From Candidatus Wallbacteria bacterium (GTDB taxonomy: Bacteria; Muiribacteriota; JAQTZZ01), in the NCBI GenBank assembly GCA_028687545.1, contig JAQTZZ010000008.1, positions 1-64,000 on the forward strand: a DNA stretch of 64,000 bases. Reading direction: 5' to 3'. Positions 16,398-28,095 of this stretch are shown here, piece after piece (position 1 is the stretch's first letter; each line of letters starts with the position of its first letter). The notes beneath the pieces are model-generated. The model was not told the DNA's origin. It did no database searches and worked only from the letters and a program-made list of their open reading frames with translations. Position numbers and translations under genes: made by a program.

Positions 16398-16408
16398 ACA
16401 AATCAAAT

Positions 16409-16532
16409 AAGGCTGTTCAAAAATGTCCAGATGCTAGGCCCACGAATCCGCGCAAAGCGAGACATACTTAATCGTATGTTGAGCTGCGCAGGATGAGTGG
16501 AACAACGCAGATGGACTTTTTTCAACAGCCTT
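16409..16532. repeat. 124-bp imperfect palindromic repeat element (MITE-like long hairpin)
   Basis: The ends are inverted copies: AAGGCTGTTCAAAAATGTCCA on the left (first 20 bases shown by position 16409-16428) and its near-complement at 16512-16532, ending CAACAGCCTT. The centre holds a second palindrome ACATAC-TTAATC-GTATGT (16472-16489 region). It sits between two convergent genes and includes the stop codon of the minus-strand gene. It could act as a bidirectional terminator. From memory, similar hairpins are dispersed in Desulfo-/Geobacter-like genomes. Confidence 0.75.
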
Positions 16533-18180
16533 AATATCTTCTCTGTGATTCAGGCACATACCACTTAGTCAGATTGTAAAAAATCTCTGATCCGTTTTCA
16601 TGGATCCCGTGGATGCGCTTGTTGACAACAGTAATGTCTTCAGTGAAAAACAGGAATGTCACAGGCTGATCAGCATACAGCAGTCTCTGGAATTTGTGGT
16701 AAATTTCCGCCCGCTCTGAAGGATCAATGGTCCGGCGGGCAAGTTCAAGCAGTTTATCTGTCTCAGGGTTATTATATGAAAAAAAGTTGTAGCCCACTTT
16801 TTTCTTCCCGGTATCCGGTATCTGTGAAGAATGCCACAACATAAAGGGATCAGGGTCGATCGAAAGGTCCCAGCCAAGGATTATTGCATCGAATTTTTTT
16901 GAAAGTCCTTTGTCCAGCAGTACACTCCATTCATCGAACTGAAGATTCACCTTGACTCCGACCGCTTCCCAGGCATCCTTCAGCACTTTAGCCACCAGCT
17001 GCCTGATCGCATTGCCGTGGGTCGCCACCAGATCGAATTCAAATTTCTTCCCTCCGTTTTCCAGCACTCCGTCCTTGTCGGTATCGACCCATCCGGCCGC
17101 TTTCAGAAGTTTCCTGGCTTCATCCTGAGAAAATGCCATCACCTCCATGCTTTTGTCATAATCATCTGAGGTGATCAGGAAAGATCCGTTGCACTCTTTA
17201 CCGTAACCCTGAAGAACATCGCTGATAATTCCCTGACGGTTGACGGCCATGGTCAAGGCTCGTCTGACGTTCCTGTCTGCAAAGAGCGGGTTAAGCAGGT
17301 TGTATTCCACGAAAAGGAACATCCGATTCAGGGATTTGTAGACATTGAAATTTTCTTTGAACGCAGGAGTGTCCCCCTGCTTTACCAGTTGATCCGGATT
17401 TAACCGCAAAAGATCCACTTCGCCTTTTAAAAGGGAGAGAAAAGACATCGAAGCATCTGGGATAATCCGGTATGTATAACCATCGAGACAGGGACGTCCG
17501 TTGAAATATTTTCTGTTGCTTTCCAGAACGATCTGCTCATGCTGATCCCATTTGACAAACTTAAAAGGTCCGGTACCCACTAAAGGAGGTTCTTTTTTCA
17601 TGTCAGAGATTCCGTCCTCCTGGAAGATCTTTCTGGGGACTATGAAGCATCTCCAGGCAGAAAGAGCATAGGCAAACGGTTCCCTGTAAGTCACTTTCAC
17701 TCTATACTTATCCAGGATTTCAACAGACTGCACCGGCTCAAAATACGGTTTGAAAAAAGATTCGGAACTGTCTTTCATGATCATCTGATAAGTGAATAAA
17801 ACATCGTCTGCTGTGAATTCCGAGTTGTCGTGCCACAAAACATTCTTGCGCAGGTAAAACAGGATGGTCTGTCCGTCAGGGGAGAACTCCCAGCGTTCGG
17901 CTAGATCAGGCAGCAGTTCAAAATTTTCATTTTCTCTGACCAGTCCATTGAAAATCTTGCTCAGGATTCCGATGGAATAACCTTCGTTATAGGCCAGTGG
18001 ATTCAGCAATGGCGGGTTCACACCCATGGTTTCCACCAACATATCCCCATAAACCTGCCCGTTGTCCACGCGCTGGTTTGCAACATTGGAAGAAGTAGCG
18101 GTTCCGACATTCTTCGGGCCGGGCTGGCCGCAGCCACAGAGTAAGATGTTGATTAAAAATACTGAAATCAGGCTCTTCAA
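16531..18180 (-). CDS. Solute-binding lipoprotein, ABC family 5 (peptide/nickel type), orphan
   Basis: This 549-residue protein has a short lipoprotein signal with lipobox LCGC at about residues 15-18. The family 5 pattern follows: NPLAYNEGYSIGILSKIFNG, LAERWEFSPDGQTI, WHDNSEFTADDV and, late in the protein, DAIILGWDLSIDPDPFMLWHSS. Such proteins bind oligopeptides or metal complexes and deliver them to an ABC importer. No permease or ATPase gene is nearby. The gene starts at TTG with GGGGA four bases upstream. Two paralogs occur in this window, at 32398 and 62580. Ligand unknown. Confidence 0.93.
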   Translation of the reverse strand: MKSLISVFLINILLCGCGQPGPKNVGTATSSNVANQRVDNGQVYGDMLVETMGVNPPLLNPLAYNEGYSIGILSKIFNGLVRENENFELLPDLAERWEFSPDGQTILFYLRKNVLWHDNSEFTADDVLFTYQMIMKDSSESFFKPYFEPVQSVEILDKYRVKVTYREPFAYALSAWRCFIVPRKIFQEDGISDMKKEPPLVGTGPFKFVKWDQHEQIVLESNRKYFNGRPCLDGYTYRIIPDASMSFLSLLKGEVDLLRLNPDQLVKQGDTPAFKENFNVYKSLNRMFLFVEYNLLNPLFADRNVRRALTMAVNRQGIISDVLQGYGKECNGSFLITSDDYDKSMEVMAFSQDEARKLLKAAGWVDTDKDGVLENGGKKFEFDLVATHGNAIRQLVAKVLKDAWEAVGVKVNLQFDEWSVLLDKGLSKKFDAIILGWDLSIDPDPFMLWHSSQIPDTGKKKVGYNFFSYNNPETDKLLELARRTIDPSERAEIYHKFQRLLYADQPVTFLFFTEDITVVNKRIHGIHENGSEIFYNLTKWYVPESQRRY

Positions 18181-25993: not shown

Positions 25994-26578
25994 CTATCCA
26001 CCAGATTCAGGCTTAGGCTGTTCCAGACGATATCCGTCTATGCAGGGGGAGGCTTTCAGCCCGAAGCAGCGGGCGATTGCCTCAATTGCAGGAGCAGCCT
26101 CCCACCGCGTGGCAACGAATTTGATCCTGCGGTCAGTCAGACCCGCAGCACAGGTCACTTTGATCCCGGTCAGATGAGTGAAGATCTTCAATGCAGTGTC
26201 CAGGTCGCAGTCATTGAAAGTAAGCGTAATTATGCAATTTTCCCCAGCCGGATGCTGTACTCCGGAATCCGGCACATCTTTGCTCACCATGACAAAAGCG
26301 CCATTCAAATCGATCAGTTTGGCATCCACCTGCTGAGAGAAAATTTTCGGCAGATCACACGGCCTGGTTTCTTTCACCTGAAACGTGATCTCCCTGCTGT
26401 CCAGAATATCCATGCACCCGGCGCTCATTCCTGCTAGTCGCGCTACATTCTTGAAAACATCCATCAGGCTGATTTTATTAAACTCCAGGGTCAGGAGTTT
26501 GTCCTCACCTGAGGCCAGTGCAGGCAGGAAGCATAGAATTCCAACGCAGACTATTGCCAAAGCATGGGGTCTGTTCAT
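25994..26578 (-). CDS. Secreted STN/secretin N-domain-like protein
   Basis: This 194-residue protein has a Sec signal (about 1-23) and two similar beta-alpha-beta modules. The first is LLTLEFNKISLMDVFKNVA and the second is IITLTFNDCDLDTALKIFT. These match the STN (secretin and TonB N-terminus short) domain found in secretins, PilQ and TonB receptors. Here they stand without the membrane pore. It may be an accessory to a secretin encoded elsewhere. ATG 26578 is preferred because AAGGAGGT lies four bases upstream; an ATG at 26593 lies before that site. Confidence 0.75.
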   Translation of the reverse strand: MNRPHALAIVCVGILCFLPALASGEDKLLTLEFNKISLMDVFKNVARLAGMSAGCMDILDSREITFQVKETRPCDLPKIFSQQVDAKLIDLNGAFVMVSKDVPDSGVQHPAGENCIITLTFNDCDLDTALKIFTHLTGIKVTCAAGLTDRRIKFVATRWEAAPAIEAIARCFGLKASPCIDGYRLEQPKPESGG

Positions 26579-26689
26579 TTTTACCTCCTTCATCGTATTT
26601 TCCTGATTCCATTATAAACAGATCCTGTAAACATCCTTTCATAATCTTGTAAAAATCATGTAACTTTTTTACTTGTGCCTTTTCCCTCA

Positions 26690-26901
26690 TTCCAGCGCAG
26701 CTGAAGCTTCGGGGACTATAGTCGCAGGTATGACGGAAGGGAGAGTATGCCGGGGACTTGTTCCTGCGGAGGAGTTCAAAGGCGCTGCACTCAGCCTTGT
26801 CAATGGCAGAATCCTGTCTAAGCCTGCAGATAAGTGAAGTCCTGCTGACCGAAGATTCGGCAAGCAGGACGAAACGACCGGAGCAGGAATAAGTCCCCGG
26901 C
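26690..26901. repeat. Compound structured element (two nested palindromic units), possible ncRNA
   Basis: Most of the 386-base gap before the Fic gene is highly structured. The first part (26690-26742) has near-complementary ends around the palindrome GACTATAGTC (26714-26723). The second part (26749-26901) is closed by a 19-bp stem, GCCGGGGACTTGTTCCTGC with 26883-26901, containing one G-U pair. Inside are a hairpin GTCCTGCT...AGCAGGAC (26839-26870) capped by CCGAA-GA-TTCGG, and a small stem at 26779-26798. No T-run or protein frame accompanies it. It could be a mobile palindromic repeat or a folded RNA; neither can be decided here. Confidence 0.7.
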
Positions 26902-26964
26902 CTGCTGATTCATGTAACTACTGTTATGATATGATAAAATTGAAAGCTACATCACGATGAAGAT

Positions 26965-28095
26965 TTATCTATTTCCTTCACTCGGCCAGACCAGGTCATA
27001 GCTGACGCTGCGGCCCCTGCCAGGCAGTTGTTTAAGTATTCCCTTTTCGAGCAGGTCTGAGATCTCCCTGAATGCCGTGGCTCTGCTGACTTTAGCAATG
27101 CCCGTATACTTTCGGGTGGTCAGGCCGCCCTCGAAATTGCCTGGCCCTGCTTCCAGCATGCGGTTCAGCACTTTTTTCTGGCGCACGCTGAGTTCTGCCT
27201 GAACGTGCAGCTGCCAGAAATCAGCCCTGGCCAGCACATTTCCGATGATCCTGTCGGATCTCTCGATTGAGCGTTTGAAGCATCCCAGAAACCAGGAAAG
27301 CCAGCTGGTTACATCCGGGCTTTTTCCGGTCGAGCATTTCTCAATGGCAGCATAGTATTCTTCCCTTTCTTCCATGATCTGCGATGAAAGGCTGTAATAC
27401 CTGGACGCGCTCTTTTCATCCTGGGCCAGAGCCATGTCGGTCAGGGCTCTGGCGATGCGTCCGTTCCCGTCTTCAAACGGGTGGATGACGACAAAATAGA
27501 AATGTGCCAGGCCAGCTCGCAGAAGTCCGTCCATGGTATTGCGGCCTTCTTCCCACCACTGCAGAAATTTCCTCATTTCAGCTTCAACCACTTCACCCGG
27601 AGGGGCTTCAAAATGGATTTTTTCCCGCCCAACTTTCCCTGACACTATCCGCATCGGATCGTTTCCACGCCATTGTCCTGTCCGGATCTTATGCAGCCCG
27701 GAATGGCCTGCCGGAAAAAGCGCTGCCTGCCAGACTTTCAGCCTCAGATCTGTAAGAGGCTCCTCAGATTTCTGAGTGGCGTCCAAGATCACTTCCACCA
27801 GTCCGTCAATCGATCTGGTTGACTGGACCAGGCCTCCGGCAGGAAGCCCGAGATGCCTCGCGACAGAAGATCTCACCATCTGCCGGTTCAAGCGCTCTCC
27901 TTCAATCTCTGCGGTTTTTATAGCCTCTTCAACCAGAAGGTCAGACTGCGCATCTTCTCCGAGGTTCAATCCAAGATGCCTGACTCGGCCGAAAAAGGTC
28001 CCCTGGGCAAGCCTTGCCTGTCCGGAAAGCTTAAGCAGAGCATCGCTGTCCCAGGTCAATTCAGGCCAGAATTCGCATTGCCAGATGTACTTCAT
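26965..28095 (-). CDS. Fic-family protein (AMPylase) with inhibitory motif and C-terminal winged helix
   Basis: This 376-residue protein has an N-terminal domain of the DUF4172 type with the inhibitory motif TAEIEG (61-66), matching (S/T)xxxE(G/N). The Fic core HPFEDGNGRIAR (205-216) includes the catalytic histidine, and a C-terminal helix-turn-helix (about 315-370, ATAFREISDLLEKGILKQLP) follows. Fic enzymes transfer AMP to target proteins, and the inhibitory glutamate keeps this one off. The DNA-binding tail suggests autoregulation at the inverted repeat upstream. No separate antitoxin is needed for this class. No linked defence genes are proven. Confidence 0.93.
   Translation of the reverse strand: MKYIWQCEFWPELTWDSDALLKLSGQARLAQGTFFGRVRHLGLNLGEDAQSDLLVEEAIKTAEIEGERLNRQMVRSSVARHLGLPAGGLVQSTRSIDGLVEVILDATQKSEEPLTDLRLKVWQAALFPAGHSGLHKIRTGQWRGNDPMRIVSGKVGREKIHFEAPPGEVVEAEMRKFLQWWEEGRNTMDGLLRAGLAHFYFVVIHPFEDGNGRIARALTDMALAQDEKSASRYYSLSSQIMEEREEYYAAIEKCSTGKSPDVTSWLSWFLGCFKRSIERSDRIIGNVLARADFWQLHVQAELSVRQKKVLNRMLEAGPGNFEGGLTTRKYTGIAKVSRATAFREISDLLEKGILKQLPGRGRSVSYDLVWPSEGNR

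Follow-up and report, generated by a model that had tools for sequence, protein, structure and literature searches.

A dispersed family of palindromic repeats with a covarying closing stem in a Candidatus Wallbacteria genome

Dispersed palindromes are commonly regarded as DNA parasites whose ends are conserved. The family described here, which we encountered as a structured intergenic element next to a Fic gene, fits the broad class of scattered hairpin repeats known from earlier work.

The closest described systems resemble it in different respects. First, the SLS families and the bacterial MITEs (ERIC, NEMIS, RUP) are, like our family, small, non-coding, multi-copy and intergenic, with a robust hairpin (PMC2267715, PMC3733652), and probable transcription from neighbouring genes is a further likeness; our family differs from them in having neither conserved terminal inverted repeats nor target duplication, and in its multi-branched, modular arms. 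Second, the REP/BIME sequences associated with RAYT likewise have stems with complementary changes (PMC3733652, PMC2817692, PMC8266576), and the genome investigated here encodes one Y1 transposase. REPs also sit 3' of genes and in convergent gaps (PMC3733652), as our family does. However, REPs measure 20-40 bp, whereas the copies of our family are about 110-220 bp long, are closed by a stem of 18-24 bp, and number only 12. Third, the multicopy sequences of Geobacter are likewise lineage-specific, intergenic palindromic families, several per genome (PMC2996986), a likeness drawn by description only; as far as the excerpted account goes, covariation is not described for them (PMC2996986).

The window element and its copies

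Within the window, that is, the whole stretch of 64,000 nucleotides analysed, the 212-nt segment 26690-26901 has a folding energy of -87.6 kcal/mol (z -3.9; equalled by 0 of 200 shuffles), with a z of -2.4 for the minus strand, and the element by itself, as delimited in Table 1, reaches a z of about -8. The feature is real and goes beyond chance. The preliminary description of this locus had proposed a 19-bp closing stem and an internal, capped 8-bp hairpin, and both were recovered, the former with one G.U pair and the latter with its strands at 26839-26846 and 26863-26870. It had also reported the absence of a coding frame, a terminator or a known ncRNA signature, which agrees with our searches: coding use, a promoter and an intrinsic terminator were looked for in the element and none was found, and an Rfam scan returned no family at gathering score for the window copy or for the 11 other copies.

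Its structural intuition was, thus, largely correct, although not in every part. A second palindromic unit, placed at 26690-26747, folds worse than its own shuffles (z +1.25) and is missing from the other copies, whose homology begins at about 26748, and the CGGGGACT segment said to be common to both units is an 8-mer of chance length. Moreover, the element had been placed upstream of the Fic gene, which is wrong, as this gene lies on the minus strand and turns its stop codon, not its start codon, toward the element. The protein of one of the neighbour genes has its nearest match, at 31% identity, in a Ca. Wallbacteria record.

Table 1. Coordinates of the window element, its parts and its neighbour genes.
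Feature	Position in window	Strand	Basis or remark
Repeat element	26749..26901	+	Copy alignments and fold; stem possibly extends imperfectly to 26744-26906
Closing stem P1, 5' arm	26749..26767	+	Outer portion differs between copies
Conserved core, 5' side: GGA internal loop, GG of stem P1b, GTTCAAAGGCG	26768..26788	+	Alignment; pattern search
Optional side-arm hairpin, 8-bp stem GTCCTGCT/AGCAGGAC, cap CCGAAGATTCGG	26839..26870	+	Carried by 7/12 copies
Conserved core, 3' side: CC of stem P1b and GGA, facing the 5' GGA loop	26878..26882	+	
Closing stem P1, 3' arm	26883..26901	+	
Neighbour gene, DUF4172-Fic protein	26965..28095	-	3' end toward element
Neighbour gene, 199-aa protein without Pfam match	25994..26593	-	5' end toward element

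The searched genome is a 4.54-Mb draft in 108 contigs, and BLAST, a pattern search and a covariance model (R1) yielded 12 dispersed copies in it, distributed over contigs C8 (the window), C41, C66, C30, C9, C6 (three), C23, C7 (two) and C77. Since R1 copes badly with long middle inserts, this count rests mainly on BLAST and on the pattern search, where the core pattern was found at 10 places in the genome versus one in a reversed control. The flanks of the 12 copies are unrelated to one another, and every copy folds better than expected, with z from -3.5 to -10.8. The preliminary description had allowed that many copies would imply a mobile repeat, and had named many degenerate copies without covariation as the outcome speaking against a structured element; what we found is a dispersed repeat whose copies are structured and covary. 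As in SLS and other palindromic families, the dispersed copies have one predicted common secondary structure and are all intergenic (12/12).

A search of 39 genomes from the phylum and 17 more distant ones found no homologue; the single covariance-model match, in G023 (L047), lacks the element. An origin from phages or plasmids was rejected as well: the family was not found in phage records, plasmid records gave nothing but one 25-base chance match, and the exact pattern matches in viral contigs, whose number is near chance, are not accompanied by the remainder of the element. The copies themselves are old and diverged.

Anatomy and covariation of the copies

Common to the copies are the closing stem P1, a 3x3 internal loop of the GGA/GGA type, a 2-bp GG/CC helix, the GTTCAAAGGCG segment and the matching 3' core, with slight deviations in single copies. 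The side arm, bordered by the conserved AAGTGAAG and CGAAACG, is absent from five copies. The middle region is variable and modular: in some copies it holds a hairpin with tandem GA mismatches, for instance CACC-GA-AGC..GCT-GA-GGTG, and in four it is a double hairpin ending in AGAGGCTCTAACA...GAAGAGCCTCT.

To quantify covariation we used alignment A1, which has 12 rows and covers the core only, the middle having been cut from every copy and the side arm wherever present. In A1, 92.6% of the P1 cells are paired and 11 of 18 P1 pairs show double-sided changes, the outer stem having a different sequence in every copy with its pairing retained. The covariation score of the whole structure was 0.395, versus 0.181 +/- 0.022 when shuffled (0/500 on all five measures). 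Sliding the partners brought it down to 0.116 or less, a control that is partly favourable by construction because A1 had been trimmed as described and its sequences were in view when the structure was chosen. For the parsimony analysis the tree was built from columns outside P1 only, which limits the count of inherited changes; on this core tree, P1 underwent 56 pair changes, namely, about 26 double-compensatory, 12 one-sided but still paired, and 18 breaking or restoring. Identity between copies is 54% in the outer 7 bp, 78% in the inner 11 bp and 75% in the core.

That the closing stem changed repeatedly and yet remained paired suggests, on this comparison of sequences, that the folded shape matters. 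From the repeated compensatory change in a drifting stem we infer that the fold has remained under selection, the simplest case being an RNA within 3' untranslated regions; under such selection the sequence would drift and the pairing would stay. The covariation is unusually clear. With a conserved interior and ends that drift but stay paired, selection for the folded form would be readable within one genome. The family offers natural material for examining whether repeats of this type function as RNA.

Double changes can also arise without selection, through palindrome correction. According to this alternative, the copies would be palindromes at the DNA level only, their pairing maintained by template switching at cruciforms or fold-backs, or by single-strand recognition by a transposase, with no RNA function, and other near-perfect long inverted repeats are indeed present in the genome. 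We consider this unlikely: correction should perfect the stems, yet G.U pairs persist in most copies, with A.C being rarer, and the conserved internal loops are left unexplained.

The plus strand is favoured as the RNA, but not proven, by two traits of the alignment and folds. It gives the more stable fold in 10 of the 12 copies, and among the P1 mismatches G.U (18) exceeds A.C (4), as expected for an RNA of this strand. Both traits count in favour of a multi-copy structured ncRNA, that is, a set of RNA genes or of sRNAs derived from 3' untranslated regions, in which the core binds a protein or a ligand and the stem is a scaffold. Conserved loops together with a freely covarying stem are what a functional RNA usually shows, and GA-rich internal loops recur. 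However, once a single conserved wobble column is set aside, the G.U bias is only 11 versus 4 (p=0.12), and the window copy matches neither a promoter nor a terminator. Such a trans-acting RNA, binding through its conserved core, is the strongest competitor of the reading that we prefer, and a possible one, albeit of rather low probability.

The unlike outer stems of most copies may also be read as target sequence that does not belong to the element, the copies then being relics of insertion into pre-existing inverted repeats or terminators, and insertion of REPs into palindromes is known (PMC3733652). We regard this as highly improbable: the stem carries a weak common consensus (about GCTGARGACTTGTTCC) that fades gradually outwards, the sister copies L014 and L016 agree over much of the outer stem, and no copy is followed by a T-run.

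Placement and probable origin of the family

Placement was determined for the 12 copies from gene calls with Pfam support. Each copy lies 3' of at least one stop codon, with an edge within about 12 nt of the stop codon in L014, L016, L010, L007, L002 and L004; 5 of the 12 occupy convergent gaps (L003, L007, L014, L016, L022), and none a divergent gap. Eight copies have a gene reading into them in the sense direction; for the other four (window, L002, L004, L010), such reading is in antisense only. The neighbour genes are inconsistent, and both orientations relative to genes occur, which argues against the ncRNA reading, as does the absence of the family from the 39 genomes of the phylum.

Such a spread over unrelated sites in either orientation, together with a placement like that of REPs and MITEs (PMC3733652), points to a non-autonomous dispersed repeat. 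With moderate confidence, we interpret the copies as a 12-member family of non-autonomous palindromic repeats, MITE- or REP-like, that form RNA hairpins at 3' ends; on the best reading the family is new, old and still structured. The mobility, transcription and function that we infer for it would fit together as follows. The copies would have spread as non-autonomous elements, probably via a trans-acting enzyme or a replication-linked process requiring the hairpin. Copies that landed within genes or in the promoter gaps between divergent genes would have been lost, and the survivors, transcribed within 3' untranslated regions, may have been kept as rigid RNA rods protecting or delimiting mRNA 3' ends, a role like the one ascribed to REP/BIME and MITE hairpins.

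Several observations count against parts of this interpretation. The genome yielded neither an autonomous copy nor a transposase adjacent to one of the copies; its only Y1 transposase gene, RAYT-like and with an open frame of 326 aa (C73:9447-9782; L031, L034), is on a contig from which the family is absent. The terminal sequences are unconserved between copies, and target-site duplication is absent, the mean flank match being 4.67 versus 4.98 in shuffled pairs. Finally, there are the four copies that neighbour genes read only in antisense.

Regarding known identities, the following were considered and rejected. First, a classical MITE disagrees with the low identity of the outer 7 bp and with flank matches not above those of shuffled pairs. 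Second, the copies are not REPs in the strict sense: neither end has a common tag (GTAG/CGTC), their length is far from that of REPs, and the single Y1_Tnp gene is unaccompanied by the family. Third, the GGGGWSAS terminal inverted repeat of TIRYTs (motif from PMC3733652) does not correspond to the GGGGACTT of the window copy, and the other copies lack GGGG. Fourth, a hit to the type I hammerhead ribozyme (RF00163), obtained under lax settings, is a chance-level alignment of CUGCGGAG / GACGAAACG, with 14.2 bits versus a gathering score of 34; the catalytic core is unmatched, and the short copies entirely lack the GACGAAACG part. Fifth, a riboswitch or cis-regulator of Fic is contradicted by the element facing the Fic stop codon and by copies beside unrelated genes in both orientations; of the RNA-like element in the preliminary description, therefore, the structure stands, with strong covariation and 12 copies within the genome, but not a locus-specific ncRNA tied to Fic. 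Lastly, the missing T-runs argue against an intrinsic terminator, and a retron or group II intron RNA was dismissed as there is no RVT_1 match in the genome.

Other structured repeats in the genome

In this genome, from a phylum that has received very little study, several different repeat families have exchangeable hairpin arms, and some of these arms are in common with the window's family. The hairpin module AGAGGCTCTAACA...GAAGAGCCTCT, for instance, is found outside the family, in a family that we refer to as B and in other, larger structured intergenic repeats (C25:21728, C6:86785, C19:12611, C4:127491, C73:12490; L112-L115, L034). It is tempting to speculate, although we find it doubtful, that at least the window's family and family B belong to one modular class of rod-shaped RNAs with GA-rich loops that exchange side arms and spread, with the folded RNA as the unit recognised and maintained, in which case this would be an undescribed class of mobile or trans-acting RNA of a bacterial phylum.

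Family B is palindromic (GGCTGTTCAAAAA...TTTTTCAACAGCC), and its 22-base pattern occurs at 30 places in the genome, versus 2 in the reversed control. The one genome of the same taxonomic family, G001, has 6 matches to this pattern. The window contains a copy at 16408-16533, GGCTGTTCAAAAATG..CAGATGC ... GCAGATGG..TTTTTTCAACAGCC, between the end of a plus-strand gene (16397) and that of a minus-strand gene (16531).

The members of a third family measure about 283 bp and have 36-bp inverted repeats, CTAGTGGTNNGCCACRCTTAAATTT...AAATTTAAGYGTGGCNNACCACTAG (C1:1538-1819, C6:102334-102616, C8:112470-112752), and a dispersed repeat of about 126 bp contains AGGACAGGACCCGCCACAAA and GGCTGCACACCACAAAATT (C30:41744-41869, C6:17178-17304, C9:108269-108338). 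Long hairpins of further families are present in a 749-kb sample, and short near-perfect palindromes such as GTAGAGACGCGCC, similar to GTAG-tagged REPs, occur at C1:193718-193776, C1:72953-72990 and C7:149095-149148.
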